From assembly GCF_000025725.1 (NCBI RefSeq), contig NC_013943.1, positions 2,604,001 through 2,668,000 of the forward strand: a stretch of DNA of 64,000 nucleotides, in the 5' to 3' direction. Every line of letters starts with the position of its first letter. Positions within the stretch are counted from its first letter, which is position 1. Under the pieces are notes generated by a model that searched no databases, was not told the origin of the DNA, and worked only from the letters and a program-made list of their open reading frames with translations. The position numbers and the translations under genes were made by a program. Shown here one piece after another: positions 19,112 to 59,955 of this stretch. Origin of the DNA: Denitrovibrio acetiphilus DSM 12809. GTDB taxonomy: Bacteria; Chrysiogenota; Deferribacteres; Deferribacterales; Geovibrionaceae.

Positions 19112-19984
19112 ATGTTTAAAGGAAGCTACGTTGCAATCGTGACCCCTTTCGCTGACGGAAAGGTTGACGAAAAAGCACTAAGAGCTCTGGTTGACTACCA
19201 GATAGAAAGAGGCACTGACGGCATTGTTCCATGCGGGACATCCGGCGAATCTGCCACGCTCACATACGAAGAACACTGTCAGGTGATAGATATAGTTATC
19301 GACCAGACCAACAAGCGTGTGCCTGTCGTAGCGGGGACAGGTTCCAACTCCACCCATGAGACAGTATACTTTACAGAACACGCAAAAAAGGCAGGTGCAG
19401 ATGGCGCACTCCTTATCACACCATACTACAACAAACCTTCTCAGGAAGGGCTTTACCAGCACTATAAATATATTGCGGAGCGGGTTGACATTCCTATTAT
19501 CATGTATAACGTTCCAGGAAGAACAGCTTGTAATATGCTCCCAGAAACAGTTATAAAACTGTCCAAAATCCCTAACATCGTCTCTATAAAAGAGGCGAGC
19601 GGGTCTATGGATCAGGCAGCAGCTATAATAGGCGGCACAGATGGCGATTTCGGTCTTCTTGCCGGAGAGGACGCACTCATTTACCCTCTTCTCTGTATTG
19701 GCTCCAAAGGTGTAATTTCCGCATCTGTTAACGCCTGTCCAGCAGAAGTTGCAGAGATGTATGATGCATTCACTTCAGGAAACATAGAAAGAGCTAAAGA
19801 GCTTCACTTTATGCTTCTCCCTCTTTTCGATTCTTTCTTCATGGAAACAAATCCTGTCCCTGTTAAAAGAGCCTTGGAGCTGATGGGGCTTGTAGGACCG
19901 GAGATCAGACTTCCTCTGATGGGCATGACACCTGAAGGCACTGCCAAAATGAAGGCAATCATGGAGCAGGTCGGGATTTTATGA
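19112..19984 (+). CDS. dapA: 4-Hydroxy-tetrahydrodipicolinate synthase DapA
   Basis: Condenses pyruvate with aspartate semialdehyde, the first committed step to DAP. The 290-residue product shows GTTGE-like CGTSGESATL, YNVPGRTACNM (catalytic Tyr) and SIKEASG with the Schiff-base Lys (about 161). A strong ribosome site (GGAGGA) precedes the ATG. The stop overlaps dapB by 4 bp. Confidence 0.98.
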   Translation: MFKGSYVAIVTPFADGKVDEKALRALVDYQIERGTDGIVPCGTSGESATLTYEEHCQVIDIVIDQTNKRVPVVAGTGSNSTHETVYFTEHAKKAGADGALLITPYYNKPSQEGLYQHYKYIAERVDIPIIMYNVPGRTACNMLPETVIKLSKIPNIVSIKEASGSMDQAAAIIGGTDGDFGLLAGEDALIYPLLCIGSKGVISASVNACPAEVAEMYDAFTSGNIERAKELHFMLLPLFDSFFMETNPVPVKRALELMGLVGPEIRLPLMGMTPEGTAKMKAIMEQVGIL

Positions 19985-20787
19985 GTAAAGTAAAAATAGC
20001 AATGGTAGGCGCCGCAGGAAAAATGGGGCGCCGGATAATTTCACTGATCACAGAAGATGAAAGATGTGAACTCAACGGTGCACTGGAACACTCTGCATGT
20101 CCTTTTCTGGGGCACGATGCAGGAGATGTTGCCGGATGCGGCAAGCTGAGTGTTGAAATAACTGACGACATAGATAAAGCTTTTGACGGATGCGACGTCT
20201 TCATAGACTTCACCGGAGCAGAACCCACAATGGCAAACCTCAGCAGGTTCCAAAAGGCCGGAGTGCCCGCCGTCATAGGCAGCACAGGGATGACAACAGA
20301 GCAGACAAAAGAACTGGAAAAGCTTTCATCAGAGATGCCTGTTCTCTTTTCACCAAACATGAGTGTCGGTGTGAACCTCACTTTCAAAATACTTGAAATG
20401 GTTACGCAGGCTATCGGTGAAACATGGGATATAGAGATCATTGAAGCTCACCACCGCATGAAAAAAGATGCACCAAGCGGAACAGCCATGCGCATGGGCG
20501 AAGTCATTGCAAATGTACTGGGACGAGATATAGAAAAAGACGGCGCTTTCTGCCGCCACGGGCTCATAGGTGAAAGAACTGACAGAGAAATAGGTATGCA
20601 GACCTTGCGTGCTGGCGATATTGTCGGTGAGCACACTGCTATGTTCTGCACAAACGGCGAACGCATAGAGATTACACACAGAGCCCACACCAGAGATATG
20701 TTCGCAAAAGGAGCCATCTCCGCAGCCGTCTGGCTTAAAGGGAGAGATAACGGTTTTTACAACATGTTCGACGTATTGGGACTCTAG
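19981..20787 (+). CDS. dapB: 4-Hydroxy-tetrahydrodipicolinate reductase DapB
   Basis: Reduces the DapA product with NAD(P)H. The 268-residue protein has an N-terminal Rossmann motif VGAAGKMGRR, the substrate-binding/catalytic signature EAHHRMKKDAPSGTA (catalytic His and Lys) and GERTDREIGMQTLRAGDIVG. It is the last gene of lysA-dapF-dapA-dapB. The following LL-DAP route gene (dapL or dapD/E) is not in this window. Confidence 0.98.
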   Translation: MSKVKIAMVGAAGKMGRRIISLITEDERCELNGALEHSACPFLGHDAGDVAGCGKLSVEITDDIDKAFDGCDVFIDFTGAEPTMANLSRFQKAGVPAVIGSTGMTTEQTKELEKLSSEMPVLFSPNMSVGVNLTFKILEMVTQAIGETWDIEIIEAHHRMKKDAPSGTAMRMGEVIANVLGRDIEKDGAFCRHGLIGERTDREIGMQTLRAGDIVGEHTAMFCTNGERIEITHRAHTRDMFAKGAISAAVWLKGRDNGFYNMFDVLGL

Positions 20788-20863
20788 ATTTAAGACGAAA
20801 CTGATACTGGCAAAAAAACCACCGGATGACATATAACTACCAATACCAATCGTGTAAAAAAAC

Positions 20864-20899
20864 TTTACATATTGTAGCAGATAAAATATGTCCTATTAT
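20864..20899 (+). promoter_or_regulatory. Possible promoter for the intergenic RNA
   Basis: TTGTAG (20872-20877), 16 bp, TATTAT (20894-20899) is a weak-to-moderate sigma70-like promoter; a TTTACA at 20864 is an alternative -35. It lies just upstream of the candidate structured RNA. Confidence 0.4.
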
Positions 20900-20905
20900 G
20901 TTTAG

Positions 20906-21127
20906 AAGAAGAAAGGGATCTGCACTCTAAAGCCAAAAGAAGCAAGTAGTCAGAAGGGTTTCTGACTGGATACCCTGGATTCAAAATTAGCTGGAGCTTC
21001 TTTTAAGAAGTCAGGCGCCGACAGCTTAATAGGTTATTAGCTCTGCTAAGTGATCACACAGTTATTATGTCTCACTGGGACAAAAAACATGCGGTCGGGT
21101 GATTTTTTCGCCCGGCCCTTATTTTTC
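20906..21127 (+). ncRNA. Candidate structured non-coding RNA
   Basis: About 220 bp downstream of dapB with no open reading frame but several strong stems: a 9-bp outer stem AAAAGAAGC (20935-20943) with GCTTCTTTT (20996-21004) encloses a perfect 8-bp hairpin AGTCAGAA-GGGT-TTCTGACT (20948-20967). A further stem AGCTTAATA/TATTAGCT lies near 21024-21042. A terminator hairpin closes it at 21093-21127. I do not recognise it as tmRNA, RNase P, SRP or a known riboswitch; 6S RNA is possible by size but its consensus is not evident. The next gene is on the other strand, so a cis-leader is unlikely. Confidence 0.5.
21093..21127 (+). terminator. Rho-independent terminator of the candidate RNA
   Basis: GGTCGGG (21093-21099) pairs with CCCGGCC (21111-21117) across an AT-rich loop, followed by CTTATTTTT. 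Confidence 0.75.
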
Positions 21128-21177
21128 TAGGCATCCTTTTCAAAACACTTCACACCGGAAAACAGCAGACAAGCTTA

Positions 21178-21657
21178 TAGATTCCCCCTGGGTAACCCAG
21201 TGGCTCTATTGCTCCGCACGTGCTTAACATACGAAGCTACAACTTTGTTGTCACAGCTAGAGCATATGCAAAATACGTCACTGCGAAGCCCGCAGGGCTG
21301 TGGCAGTCGCTGGACTCGTTAATTCGTCCTGAGATTGCTTCGTTATTACATTCCTCGCAATGACTTATAAGCTCATTCATACAAGCATAAATGCGTGGTG
21401 TTATGTCTTCGAGCGCATAGATTCCTGCGGGTCAATCCGGGGTTCTATTGCTTCGCACGTGCTTAACACACGAAGCTACAACTTCGTTGTCACAGCTAGA
21501 GCATATGTAAAATACGTCACTGCGAAGCCCGCAGGGCTGTGGCAGTCTTTGGACTCGTTAGTTAATCCTGAGATTGCTTCGTCATTACACTCCTCGCAAT
21601 GACTTATAAGCTCTAACATACAAGCATAAATGCGTGATGTTCTGTCTTCGAGCGCAT
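21178..21657. repeat. Tandem pair of 240-bp dispersed repeat elements
   Basis: Two copies (21178-21417 and 21418-21657) lie head to tail, spaced exactly 240 bp. Each starts TAGATTCC, contains CGCACGTGCTTAACA, an ACAAC-TTT/C-GTTGT hairpin, CACTGCGAAGCCCGCAGGGC, and a core GAGATTGCTTCGT.ATTACA, and ends TTCGAGCGCATA. A third, diverged copy is at 59477. The core also recurs at 27645-27803. No coding capacity is supported. Confidence 0.85.
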
Positions 21658-21687
21658 AAAAAAAAGCCGGCTCACGTGAACCGGCTT
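21657..21687 (-). terminator. Terminator of the sfrBA-like operon
   Basis: AAGCCGG and CCGGCTT arms (21664-21687, with an inner TCACGTGA palindrome) are followed on the minus strand by a run of eight T. It lies 27 bp after the stop of the NuoG-like gene. Confidence 0.9.
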
Positions 21688-21713
21688 AAATATATTTCAG
21701 TAATTTAGAATGT

Positions 21714-23960
21714 TTAGAAATCGCGTGTCACTGCAACAACACCTTTTGCCACGGTAGGAGACTGTTCCGCGCCGGCATACTCTGCATCTTCCCCCGCTAA
21801 AATCTGCTTAACCACAGGGAAGAAATATTCTCTACTCTCTTCTGTAGGGGCGAGGTAGGATTTGGCGGTGATGATATTTGTATAATACCTTGGGAACATA
21901 TAGTAAACAAAAGTTTTTGCAGCAGGTTTGCTATAGCTGTACGGTGTGCTGTTCCACTCGTTTGATTTCTCTTTAACGATAGTGCCGTCAACCTCAGAAT
22001 AATCAACATCAGGGAAACCGTTTTTACCAGCGATATCACCATGAAAAGTATCATAAGCGCAAGCGGTTACATTTTGTCCCATAAGAGAGGCGAGCATTGA
22101 TGCCACCTGCACGTGAGTTTTCTGAGAACCTTTCGCCTCTACGATCTTTTCAAGAGCAACAAGCCTGCCGTCAAGAGTGGTAAAAGTCCCCACAGTTTCC
22201 AGTGAGTCCTTCACAGGCAGGATAATGTCTGCTGTTCCGGCAGATCCTGTTTTAAAGATATCTGCTGCTATATATGTTCCTGCTTTTGAAAAAGCGGATT
22301 CAAGTTCCGACATTACTTTACAGTTAGGCCTGGCGTTGAATCCAGCGTTAACGACAACTTTCACAGCACCAGATCTGAGCTCTTCAGTAAGCTTCTGTGC
22401 GGTGTATCCGTTGCGTACGTATCCGTTCACAACAGCGCCCATGTAGTTTACCTGATCATTTATAACAAAAACTGATTTAAGCAGGTCTTTGCCGAGAAAA
22501 TCACAGAAAGCGAGAACAGCATCGGCGTCTGTACCGGACTGTATGTATTCCTCACCGATAACGATAGAGACCTTCTTAGCCTTTTTCAGCACAGCGGGCA
22601 CGTAGAGTTCGGGGTCATTTACAACATCTATAATATTAGGATTCTGCTGATTAGACGGTGCCGGAGCATCTTTCTTCATCTCTTCAAGTGCACCTGCAAA
22701 ATCGCCATACTCAGCCATAAAAGTTTTAGTTGTAAACAGGTCATACTCGTACTTCTGAACACCAGCCACATAGAGTTTTGCGTCATTGTGTATTACAGCG
22801 TTCATTATTTTGTGCTTAACGCCCACGGCTTCCCTGCGGAGGTCGCAGCCGATAACAAATACCACATCGGAATCCTTTATGTCATCAAGTGTACCAATGT
22901 TCTCCATCGTTCCGAATTTGGCAGAATATTTGTCGTAAAACTCGCCGAGAGAGATATCTGCTTCGCTTGTCAGTTTTTTAGAGCCAACAGCGTCCATGAA
23001 CTTTTTATAAGCGGCAAAAGCTTCATTTGTAATTGTGCTTCCAGCCACAAAAGCTATCTCTTCAGGTTTAACGCCTGCAAGTTTATCTTTAAGCAGGGCT
23101 TCTGTTTCTTCCCAGCTTATCTGACTCAGGCTTCCGTTATTTGAAGCCATAGGGTTCAGCGCTCTTTCTGCGCTGTCCAGATATTTAAATGCAAACCTGT
23201 CCTGAGCTGTGATCTGACCGCTGCCTACAGCTTTTGCTCTGTATATTTTACCGTCTTTCAGTCCGTACTCAACAGCTCCGCCAGTTGGGGAGAAAACAGA
23301 AGAAGTCACTTTGTTTTCGAGATCCCACACCCGTGCAGAGTGATGAAACTGAGAGTCTAGCAGGGCGCCCACGGGGCATCTATCGATACATGTACCGCAG
23401 AAGTCGCATTTCAGTGTATCGCCTTTGGAAGGTGTTACGTGATTATAAAAGCCTCTGTCCTCCATCTTCAGCGCAGAGCAGCCTGTCATTTCGTGGCAGG
23501 ACTTAATGCATTTTTCGCAGAGAACGCAGAGGTTTGAATTGTATACTATTTTATTCCAGTATTCGATCGGTTCAGCCGGTTTGTCAGAAGAAACCTGTTC
23601 CTCCATCATACCGAACCCAAAGGCTGTATCCTGAAGTTCACATTCGCCGGCTTTGTCACATATAGGGCAGTCCAGCGGGTGTTTTATAAGAATGAAATCA
23701 AGCATATCCTTTCTGTTTTTCCAGACATGCTCGTTATCAGTTTCTATCTTCATGCCGTCTTTTGCATAGGTTACGCAGGCTGCCTGAAGCCTTTCAGCGC
23801 CTTCAACCTGAACAAGGCAAAGTCTGCAAGCTCCTGTCGGAGTTACATCCTTCAGATAGCACAGGGTTGGTATATGGATTCCGTTTCTTTCTGCTACATC
23901 CAATATGGATTCGCCTTCGTCGAAAGAGTAGGGTTTGTTATTTATGATGATTTCTGACAT
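21714..23960 (-). CDS. sfrA: NuoG-like iron-sulfur subunit, probable SfrA-type NADPH oxidoreductase alpha subunit
   Basis: A 748-residue cytosolic redox protein built like NuoG. A 2Fe-2S domain comes first (Cys in TLCYLKDVTPTGACRLCLVQ), then a His-Cys cluster (HPLDCPICDKAGECELQD), two ferredoxin-type clusters (CVLCEKCIKSC and CDFCGTCIDRCP), and a molybdopterin-oxidoreductase-like domain without obvious Mo ligand. Isolated from other nuo genes but immediately downstream (19 bp) of a GltD-like flavoprotein, it matches the composition of Geobacter SfrAB, an NADPH-oxidising soluble reductase (family knowledge). Complex I NuoG is the alternative; the missing nuo genes argue against it. Confidence 0.75.
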   Translation of the reverse strand: MSEIIINNKPYSFDEGESILDVAERNGIHIPTLCYLKDVTPTGACRLCLVQVEGAERLQAACVTYAKDGMKIETDNEHVWKNRKDMLDFILIKHPLDCPICDKAGECELQDTAFGFGMMEEQVSSDKPAEPIEYWNKIVYNSNLCVLCEKCIKSCHEMTGCSALKMEDRGFYNHVTPSKGDTLKCDFCGTCIDRCPVGALLDSQFHHSARVWDLENKVTSSVFSPTGGAVEYGLKDGKIYRAKAVGSGQITAQDRFAFKYLDSAERALNPMASNNGSLSQISWEETEALLKDKLAGVKPEEIAFVAGSTITNEAFAAYKKFMDAVGSKKLTSEADISLGEFYDKYSAKFGTMENIGTLDDIKDSDVVFVIGCDLRREAVGVKHKIMNAVIHNDAKLYVAGVQKYEYDLFTTKTFMAEYGDFAGALEEMKKDAPAPSNQQNPNIIDVVNDPELYVPAVLKKAKKVSIVIGEEYIQSGTDADAVLAFCDFLGKDLLKSVFVINDQVNYMGAVVNGYVRNGYTAQKLTEELRSGAVKVVVNAGFNARPNCKVMSELESAFSKAGTYIAADIFKTGSAGTADIILPVKDSLETVGTFTTLDGRLVALEKIVEAKGSQKTHVQVASMLASLMGQNVTACAYDTFHGDIAGKNGFPDVDYSEVDGTIVKEKSNEWNSTPYSYSKPAAKTFVYYMFPRYYTNIITAKSYLAPTEESREYFFPVVKQILAGEDAEYAGAEQSPTVAKGVVAVTRDF

Positions 23961-23979
23961 TTTTATCTACTCCGCCCGC

Positions 23980-25953
23980 CTAGTTTTTTCCCAGTGCAAC
24001 CATAGCCATGCGTACACAGCGGAGGCATCTTGTTGCCTCATCATACGCCTGACTCATTGTGAAAGGTTTTTCAACCTCTTGATAATTGTCTCTTCTGGCT
24101 TCACCGCTCATCTTCTCCTGATGTACTCTGTGGATAGATGTGGTTTCCATTTCGCAGACCTTCTCTTTCTTATCGAAAACAGCACCACGGCTGGTTTCCA
24201 GAGCTCTCTGAAGCGTTTCCTCTTCTGTAAGATACGGAGCGCCTTCCCTGAGATACCTGTCTATCATAGTGGACGCCCAGCGGGCAGCACCTATGGCTTT
24301 TACAACAGTCATTGGACCCCACTCGCAGTCACCGGCAGAATACACCTGCGGGTCTGTGGTATCGTAAAGGTCGTCACGCACTTTGAATGTGCTCCACTTA
24401 GTAACATCTATGCCGTCTTCTTCTCTGAGGAAGCTCAGATCAGGATCCTGACCGATGGCAGGGATGATAACATCGCAGTCTATGATAAACTCTGAGCCTT
24501 CGACAGGCTGAGGTCTTCTACGTCCGGAATCATCAGGCTCGCCAAGCTCCATTCTGATAGCTTCGCACCCGACTACCTTGTTATTCTCTGCAATAACTCT
24601 TGTTGGGTTGCAGAGGAAGTGGAAGTTTATCCCTTCGTCAATAGCGTCTGTTATCTCGTAATCTTCAGCGGGCATTTCCGCTCTGGTTCTTCTGTATATG
24701 AGGTTTACGTCTGTTGCGCCTTCTCTGAGAGCAACTCGTACGCAGTCAATGGCAGTATTACCGCCCCCGACCACAACTACTTTCTTACCTTTAACATTAA
24801 CATCCTGTCCTATTGCCTGTTCATAAAGGAAGTCTATACCGCCTGGATAAACGCCGTCATATCCTTCTTTCTCACCTTCGATCCCCATCGCTTTAGATCT
24901 CCATGCACCGAGGGTTACAAGGACAGCGTCATAATTCTTTTTCATGTATGCAAGGTCGATATCATCCTTTGGACCGCCGAATTTAGTATTGTACTGAATT
25001 TCGACACCGAGGGACTGTATGATTTCAACTTCGTGCCGGAGAATATGTCTCGGCTCTCTGTAATCTGGTATTCCGAGAGCAACCATACCGCCGGGTTCCG
25101 CACACATTTCATATATTTTGCAGGTATACCCCATGAGGCTCAGGTAGTAGGCGGCGGTGAGTCCTGCTGGACCCGCACCTATGATGCCGACCTTTTTCCC
25201 TTTATCTTCCATTTTTGGCGGAAGCTCAGGAGTTTTATTATTGTAATATTCGTAGTCAAAAGGAGTTCTCTTCAGAACCATTATGCTTACAGGCTCTTCA
25301 TCCACAAGACCTCTGCGGCAGTTATCCTCGCAGGGGTGAGGACATACGCGTCCGCACACGCCGGGAAGCGGCATTGTCTTTCTGATAGTTGCCAGAGCAT
25401 CAAGGTGTCTGTGGTCTTTAATTTCCTCGATAAATTCAGGGATAGGCACATTCGCAGGACATCCCGCTGTGCAGGGGGCTGTGATATGCTTATGATACTC
25501 TGTAGTACCTTTTGCAACCTGAGCAGTCACCTGATCTCTGAATTCTCTTAAAAATGCTCTTACAGGAACAGTTGAGGTGGGAGCCACCGTACATTTTGCA
25601 GAGTTGAAGATAGATTCAGCCATATCAACTGCTTTGTTGATCTCTTCTTCGGAAGTTTCTCCGGATCTGATCTTCATCAGCTGTTCTGCGAGAAGCTTTG
25701 TCCCTACACGCCCTGGGAAACATCTTCCGCAGCATCCTTCACTGCTTATCTCTTCCATATAGTTAGCGAGTGCTGCGAGCATATCTACGCCTTCATCGTA
25801 AACTAAAAAGCCGTCCCAGTTGATAAGGGCTTTGAGCGGCTTGCCCCTGTACTCATCGGGAGTTTTGAATGGTGATTCGCTCCATTCCTCCCTCATTTTG
25901 CCTCTGTTGTCTAGCTTGGTATCCTTATAGTACCCGTAGCAAACTTGTGCCAT
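23980..25953 (-). CDS. sfrB: GltD-like FAD/NAD(P)H oxidoreductase with NuoF-type Fe-S domain, probable SfrB
   Basis: A 657-residue flavoprotein. The N-terminal part (to about residue 110) has the NuoF-like cluster motif SSEGCCGRCFPGRVG. A glutamate-synthase-beta-like region follows with CPANVPIP, CGRVCPHPCEDNCRR cluster Cys, FAD motif VGIIGAGPAGLTAAYY, NAD(P) motif VVVVGGGNTAIDC and AIGQDPDL...SAGDC. It would accept hydride from NADPH and pass electrons to the NuoG-like partner. The start at 25953 has GGAG upstream; the in-frame GTG 12 bp earlier overlaps that site. First gene of a two-gene operon. Confidence 0.8.
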   Translation of the reverse strand: MAQVCYGYYKDTKLDNRGKMREEWSESPFKTPDEYRGKPLKALINWDGFLVYDEGVDMLAALANYMEEISSEGCCGRCFPGRVGTKLLAEQLMKIRSGETSEEEINKAVDMAESIFNSAKCTVAPTSTVPVRAFLREFRDQVTAQVAKGTTEYHKHITAPCTAGCPANVPIPEFIEEIKDHRHLDALATIRKTMPLPGVCGRVCPHPCEDNCRRGLVDEEPVSIMVLKRTPFDYEYYNNKTPELPPKMEDKGKKVGIIGAGPAGLTAAYYLSLMGYTCKIYEMCAEPGGMVALGIPDYREPRHILRHEVEIIQSLGVEIQYNTKFGGPKDDIDLAYMKKNYDAVLVTLGAWRSKAMGIEGEKEGYDGVYPGGIDFLYEQAIGQDVNVKGKKVVVVGGGNTAIDCVRVALREGATDVNLIYRRTRAEMPAEDYEITDAIDEGINFHFLCNPTRVIAENNKVVGCEAIRMELGEPDDSGRRRPQPVEGSEFIIDCDVIIPAIGQDPDLSFLREEDGIDVTKWSTFKVRDDLYDTTDPQVYSAGDCEWGPMTVVKAIGAARWASTMIDRYLREGAPYLTEEETLQRALETSRGAVFDKKEKVCEMETTSIHRVHQEKMSGEARRDNYQEVEKPFTMSQAYDEATRCLRCVRMAMVALGKN

Positions 25954-26247
25954 TACACACTCCACGGAAATTTATGTTATTGCAATATTTATGCGCTTTA
26001 TCGGCAATGGTATACTGTATACAATTTCGTATAACACAATTATAAATCCATGTCTATAACTTTATTGTTCTTTGGGGCACTCATGGAAAAGACTGTCAAA
26101 GCCCCGAAAAAGCATTATTATTTATACACTTTTACCGGCAGGATTACAACCCCCGCGGTGAACTTATGCTCTGGTTTAACGACGTAAAATTTTATTGTGT
26201 TTACGAATAAGGCTACAATGTTTTATTATACATTGAGAGGTGTTTTA

Positions 26248-26763
26248 GTGAATAAAGCAATTAATTTCTTTTTGTGTATTCTTGTGGCTTTTCCGGTTTT
26301 TGCGTCAAAACTGGATATAAATATCATTTATGAAGCATCCCGGATGAAGATTAAAGAGACAGTATGCGGGTGGCAGCCCGACTTTGATCTTGGATATGTC
26401 GAAAGCGAAAACGACTGTTACCAAACGATATATGAGATTGATGTCCCAATGTACGGCTTTATTGTTGAGCCAAAATCCACCCCGCTTCCTCAGGCTGCAA
26501 AAGTTGCATATTATCTGTCTTTTTTTGATTCTGCCGTCCCTAAGGATGGTCATGTTAAAACCGTGGTTCTAAAAGACGGAAAGCCTGTTCGAACCGTAAC
26601 AGGCATACGTCACGACAGAACTTTTGAAGGACTTGTCATAATGGATAAAGGTGAAAGTTTACAATTTTCATCAAAAACAGAACCGTCTTACACTTATATC
26701 TATATAATAGCAGTGATATTTGTTATAATAGGCTCATATTTTATCCTCAGGAAACGAAAATGA
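26248..26763 (+). CDS. Unrecognised exported protein with C-terminal membrane anchor
   Basis: A 171-residue protein starting at GTG 26248 (GAGAGG site upstream; longer starts would bury the signal). It has a signal peptide (FFLCILVAFPVFAS), a domain of about 115 residues with two Cys (CGWQPDFDLG and NDCYQ), and a C-terminal transmembrane helix (YIYIIAVIFVIIGSYFIL) with a positive end RKRK. It would be tethered with its domain outside the cytoplasm. I do not recognise the fold. Its stop overlaps the formyltransferase gene by 4 bp, so they form an operon. Confidence 0.75.
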   Translation: MNKAINFFLCILVAFPVFASKLDINIIYEASRMKIKETVCGWQPDFDLGYVESENDCYQTIYEIDVPMYGFIVEPKSTPLPQAAKVAYYLSFFDSAVPKDGHVKTVVLKDGKPVRTVTGIRHDRTFEGLVIMDKGESLQFSSKTEPSYTYIYIIAVIFVIIGSYFILRKRK

Positions 26764-27641
26764 ACATTTGCCTTTTCACTGCAAACCACATCGGAGAACT
26801 TCTTTTAGCAGAGCTGGATAAAAGACATTTTTATCCGGATGTTGTAACCTATACAAGGGGGTTTCAGAGGACGACTCTGGCAAAAGACCTTGGCTCTTTC
26901 CGTAAAGAGTTTAATATGACTTTTATCGCATCAAACAGCTATCTCACATGTGACAAACTGCAGGACATCTCAGACCGGACTATAGTATGCGTTGACTGGA
27001 CAAAGGATTTCTTTAAGGATGCTGAGCTTGTCGGGATGGATGTTATCTTCGCTCATCCATCACTTTTACCCGCCTACAGAGGCTATTCCGCTGTCACAGA
27101 GCAGTTTGTACGGGGAGTGACTGTCAGCGGCGCAAGCTTTTATAAACAGGGGAACCGCATTGACGCAGGGGACATCATCCACTCAGCAGAAATCAGAATA
27201 GGCTATCAGGACTACCCTGACGATTTCCTCCGAAAATATGCCTCAGCCTGTGCGGACTTCATCGTGGAACTGAACAAAAAAGGGGTAGACGCATACGAAG
27301 CTGTACCGCAAAACGAAGACATGTCTTTTTATCTACAACGTAAACGTGGCAAAGACTCTATTATAGATTTCAACAGGGACGCTTTCAGCCTCTACAACCA
27401 CATCAGAGGGTACAGTCGTCCTTTTTTCGGCGCCTATTATATGTCAGAAGGCAAGAAAGTGAATGTCTGGCGTGCTTTTACTGAAGTCTGGCAGGGGGAT
27501 TACGGCTGCCCTGGCGAGGTGCTTTCTGTAACAGACAATGGAGCTGAAATCGCCTGTGGAAGTGGCACTATAACTTTCAAAGAAGTTGAAATAGACGGTA
27601 AAGTTTATAAAGGGGAACAACTTAAATGTCTTACAGTATAA
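26760..27641 (+). CDS. Formyltransferase-fold protein with altered active site
   Basis: The 293-residue product resembles the Fmt/PurN/ArnA formyltransferase superfamily: HPSLLPAYRGYSAVTEQF and GNRIDAGDIIHSAEI match the loop bearing the catalytic His and Asp (His99, Asp135). The catalytic Asn usually two residues before His is Phe97 here (IFAHPS instead of INxHPS). A C-terminal domain (GCPGEVLSVTDNGAEIACGS, TFKEVEI) matches the formyltransferase C-terminal fold. It may formylate an amino sugar or be non-catalytic; substrate unknown. Translationally coupled to the upstream membrane-anchored gene. Confidence 0.8.
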   Translation: MNICLFTANHIGELLLAELDKRHFYPDVVTYTRGFQRTTLAKDLGSFRKEFNMTFIASNSYLTCDKLQDISDRTIVCVDWTKDFFKDAELVGMDVIFAHPSLLPAYRGYSAVTEQFVRGVTVSGASFYKQGNRIDAGDIIHSAEIRIGYQDYPDDFLRKYASACADFIVELNKKGVDAYEAVPQNEDMSFYLQRKRGKDSIIDFNRDAFSLYNHIRGYSRPFFGAYYMSEGKKVNVWRAFTEVWQGDYGCPGEVLSVTDNGAEIACGSGTITFKEVEIDGKVYKGEQLKCLTV

Positions 27642-27644
27642 GGC

Positions 27645-27803
27645 ACAGATTGCTTCGTCACGCTGTTCCTTGCAACGACAAGGTTGGCACGTCACTGTCC
27701 ACACACCTCCCGTCATTGCGAACAAAGTGAAGCAATCTGCAAACGCTATCAGAGTTCCACACCATAAGATTGCTTCGTCACGCTCCTCCTCGCAATGACA
27801 ATA
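27645..27803. repeat. Dispersed palindromic repeat copies
   Basis: The core AGATTGCTTCGTCACGCT followed by CTCGCAATGAC occurs at 27646 and 27769, and inverted as GTCATTGCGAACAAAGTGAA at 27712, so the first pair forms a large inverted repeat of about 95 bp. The same core lies in the 21178 tandem repeats. The 301-bp gap 27642-27942 holds only these and the pilin promoter. Confidence 0.8.
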
Positions 27804-27873
27804 ACGGCTGTCATTACATCCCTCGCAACGACCACTATTACCTATATTTCAGTATGTAAAATAGTTTTCCATA

Positions 27874-27902
27874 TTGACTTATAATATATTCGTACGATAA
27901 TT
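27874..27902 (+). promoter_or_regulatory. Sigma70-like promoter of the pilin-like gene
   Basis: TTGACT (27874-27879), 16-17 bp, GATAAT/ATAATT (27896-27902). It lies about 40 bp before the start codon, and GGGAGGA precedes the ATG. Confidence 0.55.
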
Positions 27903-27942
27903 ATTCGTATAATAACCGTAATATACACTGCGGGAGGATATA

Positions 27943-28503
27943 ATGAATAAAAATGGCTTCACACTTGTCGAACTTGCTATAGTGCTTGTAATAATAGGGA
28001 TTATTCTCGGCGGTGTCATAAAAGGGCAGGAGCTGGTCACAAACGCTAAGATAAAAGGACTTTACAGAGAATTTCAACAAGTTGAGTTCGCTACTTTTTC
28101 ATATTACGACAGATTTAATAATTATCCAGGCGACAACAAAAGCAATGAAAACGGGCTAATAGAGGCTGACCCTGTCGGAGATGGAACCGGTACTGATGAA
28201 ACTGTCAAATTCTGGTCAGACGTAACTTCAGAAGGTTTTTATATCGGAGAGTTAGACAGTATAACCAACTTGCCTGGCCATGGACTAGGCGGAACTATAA
28301 GCGTGACAAACAAAGTATTTGGTTTTGCAAAAAACGCTGTGTGCTTTTCTGATATATCTCCGGATGACGCTCTTATATTTGACACACAATTCGACGATGG
28401 CAAATCTGATTCAGGCACAATCAGGGGCGGCAGTGGCAATAATACAGCCAGTGACGACTACACCGGAACTGCCGAATACAGGATATGCGTGCAGCTGGAT
28501 TAA
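27943..28503 (+). CDS. Type IV pilin-like / pseudopilin protein
   Basis: A 186-residue protein with a class III signal: short leader MNKNG, then FTLVELAIVLVIIGIILGGV, with Glu at mature position 5, the mark of prepilin peptidase substrates. The following region (KIKGLYREFQQVEFATFSYY) continues the alpha-1 helix and YPGDN is typical of this pilin group. The C-terminal half is Gly/Asp/Thr-rich with two Cys. It is a single gene with its own promoter and terminator, away from any pilus or secretion machinery. Confidence 0.85.
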   Translation: MNKNGFTLVELAIVLVIIGIILGGVIKGQELVTNAKIKGLYREFQQVEFATFSYYDRFNNYPGDNKSNENGLIEADPVGDGTGTDETVKFWSDVTSEGFYIGELDSITNLPGHGLGGTISVTNKVFGFAKNAVCFSDISPDDALIFDTQFDDGKSDSGTIRGGSGNNTASDDYTGTAEYRICVQLD

Positions 28504-59474: not shown

Positions 59475-59476
59475 TA

Positions 59477-59630
59477 TAGATTCCCCCAGGTAAACCCGGG
59501 GTTCTATGCTTCGCTCATGCTTAACGCATGATTTTTCCTACATCTCTCTAGAGAGATGTCTCAGCTATGCTGAGAGAAGCATTCATCCACGCTTAAAAGC
59601 GTGGTGTTCTGTCTGCTGCGCAGATTCATA
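59477..59630. repeat. Diverged dispersed repeat made of consecutive hairpins
   Basis: Starts TAGATTCCCCCAGG like the 21178 repeats and ends with a CGTGGTGTTCTGTC stretch like them, but the interior is different. It holds four stems in a row: CATGC/GCATG (59516-59530), a 20-bp perfect palindrome ACATCTCTCTAGAGAGATGT (59540-59559), CTCAGC/GCTGAG (59560-59574) and CCACGCTT/AAGCGTGG (59587-59604). Confidence 0.8.
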
Positions 59631-59717: not shown

Positions 59718-59764
59718 GATTTATTCTTGCATAATATCTAAGTTTTCCTTATATTTAATATGTA

Positions 59765-59897
59765 ATTCTCAGGGCGGGGTGCAACTCCCCACCGGCGGTA
59801 TTCTGTTAAGACAGAGAGCCCGCGAGCGCCTGCAAGCCAGGGTCAGCAGATCCGGTTAGATCCCGGAGCCGACGGTCACAGTCCGGACGAAAGAGGA
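59765..59897 (+). promoter_or_regulatory. FMN riboswitch (RFN element)
   Basis: The conserved FMN aptamer is visible: CTCAGGGCGGGGTGCAACTC, CCCACCGGCGGTA, GAGCCCGCGAGCGCC, GGTCAGCAGATCCGG, and the closing CCGGAGCCGACGGTCACAGT stretch with CCGGACGAAAGAGGA. It lies 58 bp before ribB. No T-run terminator follows; a stem of about 8 bp (ATTAACC with GGTTATT, 59896-59922) may form the expression platform, so translational control is likely. Confidence 0.96.
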
Positions 59898-59955
59898 TTA
59901 ACCAATCTTAAATAATCGGTTATTCTAACGCCCTGATTCATGAAGGAGTTTAAAC

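Follow-up and report, generated by a model that had tools for sequence, protein, structure and literature searches.

A candidate small-RNA gene family downstream of dapB shares a promoter type with a prepilin gene in Denitrovibrio and its sister genus

The genome of the marine bacterium Denitrovibrio acetiphilus is a single contig of 3,222,077 bp, and the stretch of 64,000 nucleotides analysed here (the window; C1:2604001-2668000) carries a putative small-RNA gene between dapB and a nuoG-like gene on the opposite strand (21714-23960). Positions are those of the window unless a contig is named, and the features are collected in Table 1. There is no ORF of at least 40 aa within 20906-21127, and the first gene on the same strand 3' of the RNA lies only at about 26.2 kb, both in line with the preliminary description of this DNA. 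Directly 3' of the RNA, we observed a pair of tandem repeats of 240 nt (21177-21419 and 21417-21658), about 90% identical and with ends of the ATTGCTTCGTCATTACACTCCTCGCAATGAC type. A short piece related to this repeat is found at 59475-59525, and units of the form GATTGCTTCGTCACGC..CCTCGCAATGAC that resemble it were seen by eye upstream of a prepilin gene (about 27640-27830). The window also contains an FMN riboswitch aptamer (59761-59902, plus strand, 115 bits).

The 222-nt stretch of the RNA has a predicted folding energy of -66.9 kcal/mol (z-score of -2.88), which was equalled or bettered by 2 of 200 dinucleotide shuffles. The perfect 8-bp hairpin and the strong terminator that had been noticed before are both present, the latter as a strong stem at 21093-21117 followed by a T-rich tail. 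With regard to the perfect 9-bp stem, the complementary segments do exist (AAAAGAAGC at 20935-20943 and GCTTCTTTT at 20996-21004), but the minimum-energy fold does not pair them and neither of the other two Denitrovibrio sequences has an equivalent stem, and we rejected the pairing as a conserved helix. Similarly, the promoter that had been called plausible is weak compared with the sigma-70 consensus and was not flagged by a generic promoter scan, whereas no other part of the locus is as well conserved as its sequence. The RNA would start near 20906.

Table 1. Features of the RNA locus and of the prepilin locus with the same promoter box in the window
Feature	Position	Strand	Basis
dapB, 4-hydroxy-tetrahydrodipicolinate reductase; upstream syntenic anchor of the RNA	19981-20787	+	Pfam DapB_N/DapB_C
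Palindrome TGTAAA-N5-TTTACA, operator-like, centred at about -45	20853-20869	+	exact at 7/8 RNA loci, one mismatch in G001
Box TTTACATA abutting the -35 region, common to the prepilin promoter	20864-20871	+	sequence
Promoter core: -35 TTGTAG (20872-20877), N16, -10 TATTAT (20894-20899)	20872-20899	+	pattern exact at 8/8 RNA loci
Putative small RNA, about 220 nt	20906-21127	+	promoter and terminator positions; fold z-score; no conserved ORF
Helix P1: AGGGATCT (20914-20921) with GGATACCCT (20968-20976), bulged A	20914-20976	+	shuffles, lineage swaps, homologue folds
Conserved loop TCTAAAGCCAAAAGA; AAAGCC at 20929-20934 invariant in Denitrovibrio	20926-20940	+	alignment
Hairpin P2, 8 bp: AGTCAGAA (20948-20955) / TTCTGACT (20960-20967)	20948-20967	+	sequence
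Middle stem AGCTG/CAGCT enclosing CTTCTT-TT-AAGAAG; sequence lineage-specific	20989-21026	+	fold
Pre-terminator hairpin TGTCT/GGACA	21068-21082	+	hairpin at equivalent place in 8/8
Intrinsic terminator GGTCGGGTGA/TCGCCCGGCC and T-rich tail	21093-21127	+	strong stem
Promoter of the prepilin gene, carrying the same box: TGTAAAATAGTTTTCCATATTG-N19-GATAAT	27855-27901	+	sequence pattern
Prepilin gene with RNA-type promoter, 186 aa, N-terminal methylation motif	27943-28503	+	Pfam N_methyl

The Rfam scan suggested in the preliminary description was run with Rfam 15: no family reached the gathering score at the locus and a relaxed scan gave only noise, consistent with the earlier impression of an RNA outside the recognisable classes. 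Relaxed scans of two homologues from the sister genus (g4) also yielded only sub-threshold matches, and neither Rfam nor a limited literature search provided a regulatory RNA specific to the phylum (Deferribacterota). Judged from the sequences, the RNA represents a real, new and previously unclassified small-RNA gene family of an ordinary kind, which within the tested phylum appears limited to two genera.

Homologues were found downstream of dapB in all three Denitrovibrio genomes and all five g4 genomes, and the RNA was detected in only 8 of the 51 genomes of the phylum. DNA similarity extended only to the two other Denitrovibrio genomes (G001 and G002), just 3' of dapB, and a covariance model built from the three Denitrovibrio RNAs gave strong matches confined to this genus; the g4 homologues were located not by this model but by scanning downstream of dapB for the promoter and AAAGCC. 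In g4, the RNA gene lies on the dapB strand, with the promoter motif in 5/5 genomes and AAAGCC or GAAGCC in 4/5; AAAGCC is missing from the RNA of G009. The g4 RNA bodies are almost completely conserved along their length, but between the genera the body diverges strongly, and what the two still share is limited to the 5' topology, AAAGCC and the overall layout. A model of the g4 middle domain (R2) matched g4 only and nothing in Denitrovibrio. A collection-wide scan for the promoter plus AAAGCC retrieved the two other Denitrovibrio together with 30 contigs belonging to other taxa, the latter taken as chance matches, and a search for plasmid homologues of the RNA found none. The g4 middle domain (L072-L076) carries an invariant GTCTT..AGAC plus GGGAGGA-AGCAAA.

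Predicted separately for each homologue, the 5' domain folds into a closing helix (P1), an asymmetric loop and the hairpin P2, the last being placed alike in the relatives but differing in sequence. The fold z-scores of the homologues range from -1.08 to -4.27, and G009 has no clear P2. When the 5' and 3' segments of P1 were paired, at most 1.4% of shuffles were as good in each of seven sequences (a fraction of 0.008 in D. acetiphilus). Moreover, when the 3' segments were re-assigned among five lineages, the true assignment alone attained the observed energy (1/120). P1, and not the 9-bp stem, is the evolutionarily supported helix, maintained by compensatory change. The pre-terminator hairpin is likewise present in all eight homologues while its sequence changes. 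The g4 alignment alone (MAFFT/RNAalifold) gave a poor consensus and little covariation, the g4 sequences being close to each other. Conservation in relatives, which had been proposed as a check, holds for P1, the synteny and the promoter, but not for the 9-bp stem.

The promoter of the RNA recurs at a gene for a prepilin that resembles type IV pilins. The RNA and prepilin genes are separated in D. acetiphilus by nuo genes and others, and in g4 the prepilin gene is distant or on other contigs. The pattern TTTMCATRTTG-N19-TATNNT had 12 exact matches across the family's 12 genomes, namely at the 8 RNA genes and 4 g4 prepilin genes, and none beyond the RNA and prepilin promoters in these genomes; the prepilin promoters of the three Denitrovibrio show one mismatch to it. 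Since the pattern was read off these very promoters, the matches at them are circular and expected, and it is the lack of other exact matches that is independent and informative. The 22-mer TGTAAA-N5-TTTMCATATTG also matched exactly at RNA and prepilin loci only, among 51 genomes. In G003, where the RNA was not found, a single match with one mismatch lies directly 5' of a prepilin gene. This box-bearing prepilin gene (L085, about 1440-1560) comes after a sequence that reads by eye as the terminal part of a histidine kinase and might hint at the regulator. The same promoter at unlinked loci suggests common regulation rather than the shared descent of one upstream region. Because this almost unique promoter is common to the RNA and the pilin gene, the RNA probably helps to regulate the expression of that pilin.

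On balance, we lean towards a stand-alone gene of a new small family of trans-acting sRNAs within a pilin regulon, probably acting by base pairing. Hfq-dependent trans-acting sRNAs have their own promoter, an intrinsic terminator, no conserved ORF and an A-rich, unpaired conserved loop. The first three features were found in the sequence here, the A-rich loop is another likeness, and Hfq is encoded in the genome; on the other hand, this RNA has no Rfam match and is limited to two genera, and Hfq binding and a target are only presumed. The RNA's own promoter and terminator, the lack of a shared ORF and, in D. acetiphilus, of a downstream same-strand gene, and the presence of Hfq make a trans base-pairing sRNA the likeliest reading, so that the trans-acting RNA of the preliminary description is supported as probable. 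There are two hfq genes in the genome, an ordinary one at C1:1857011 and a 171-aa frame at C1:3055067-3055498 (L159) with two Hfq-family matches (84 and 36.7 bits), apparently a two-domain Hfq.

In such a system, the gene would be transcribed from its own weak promoter into a regulatory RNA of about 220 nt, and one putative activator at the TTTMCATA box beside the -35 probably switches on both the RNA and one prepilin promoter. The RNA is predicted to fold into the 5' domain (P1, the AAAGCC internal loop and P2), a lineage-variable middle, the pre-terminator hairpin and the terminator. It most likely base-pairs in trans, presumably with Hfq, and the exposed A-rich AAAGCC loop would tune the same pilus programme through its presumptive targets. 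A more specific version, in which the AAAGCC loop of a dedicated type IV pilus RNA regulator, made together with the prepilin, pairs with the Gly-Phe codons (GGY-UUY) of the processing site common to prepilin genes and balances several prepilins, is in our view very unlikely. In several genomes, AAAGCC is complementary to GGYUUU at the Gly-Phe codons of the prepilin mRNA, but there 22-48% of shuffled mRNAs score as well, and so this pairing is no more than a lead. In most genomes, the loop matched the mRNA of the co-regulated prepilin no better than it matched shuffled sequences; in D. acetiphilus (G000) the shuffle fraction was 0.04, but a different segment was involved, and the RNA-prepilin duplexes from duplexfold were long and non-specific.

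The gene order of the two other Denitrovibrio genomes invites another explanation, namely that the RNA is a leader or riboswitch acting in cis on the prepilin gene, with a conditional terminator, and was severed from that gene by rearrangement in D. acetiphilus. G001 and G002 have the order dapB-RNA-prepilin, with the prepilin gene directly 3' of the RNA on the same strand, and the compact arrangement of P1, conserved A-rich loop and P2 followed by a terminator would suit a leader. GEMM riboswitches lie upstream of pilin genes in Geobacter, and the two genomes in which a prepilin gene is preceded by a structured, terminator-ended RNA resemble that arrangement. However, the RNA has no GEMM consensus and no match to any Rfam riboswitch family, the prepilin gene is preceded by a promoter of its own that carries the same box, and the RNA and prepilin genes are non-adjacent in 6/8 genomes. 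Only G001 and G002 have a same-strand gene directly 3' of the RNA; there is none after the terminator in D. acetiphilus and none was seen in g4, where the following coding sequence, where read, is on the opposite strand, and yet the RNA is retained and, within g4, conserved over its whole length. We consider a cis-acting leader unlikely. As to the surroundings, a formyltransferase gene and a neighbouring ORF are opposite in strand to the prepilin gene in G001 and G002; in D. acetiphilus (21700-28503) they share its strand, and the nuo genes separate all three from dapB. A protein-binding decoy expressed with the pilin, such as a sponge for CsrA or Hfq, is also improbable. csrA as well as hfq is present, and the g4 middle domain contains an invariant, apparently unpaired GGGAGGA. 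CsrB/RsmZ-type CsrA sponges carry repeated GGA motifs in hairpin loops, but no array of such loops was seen by eye in the aligned sequences, and the middle domain of the Denitrovibrio RNAs showed no GGGAGGA element.

That the region is intergenic DNA without function, folded by chance and retained only because the promoter drives something else, would agree with an RNA body that changes faster than the promoter between genera. The compensatory maintenance of P1, the fold z-scores of most homologues and the near-complete conservation of the body within g4 argue against this explanation, which we hold to be very unlikely. That the transcript encodes a small peptide, alone or besides an RNA function, is still harder to credit: the SD-like GGGAGGA precedes a start-stop AUG-UGA in three of the five g4 sequences, but no ORF is common to the eight homologues, and the peptide was rejected on this ground. 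The preliminary description had also considered a divergent 6S or other unrecognised housekeeping RNA. The similar length and the presumed stand-alone transcript from an independent promoter are all that the RNA has in common with 6S RNA (RF00013); the true 6S gene, with a match of 76.5 bits, is at another place in this genome (C1:2023630-2023809), the locus itself has no RF00013 match, and we rejected the 6S assignment. A universal housekeeping role is equally out of keeping with an RNA present in so few genomes of the phylum and with a promoter tied to one prepilin gene, and we give this identity almost no credence.

Finally, a conserved sRNA whose promoter is common to essentially one pilin gene would define, in a phylum that has received little study, a concrete regulon of two genes that is open to testing. 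The RNA-prepilin regulon may thus offer a way into the control of pili in the Deferribacterota.
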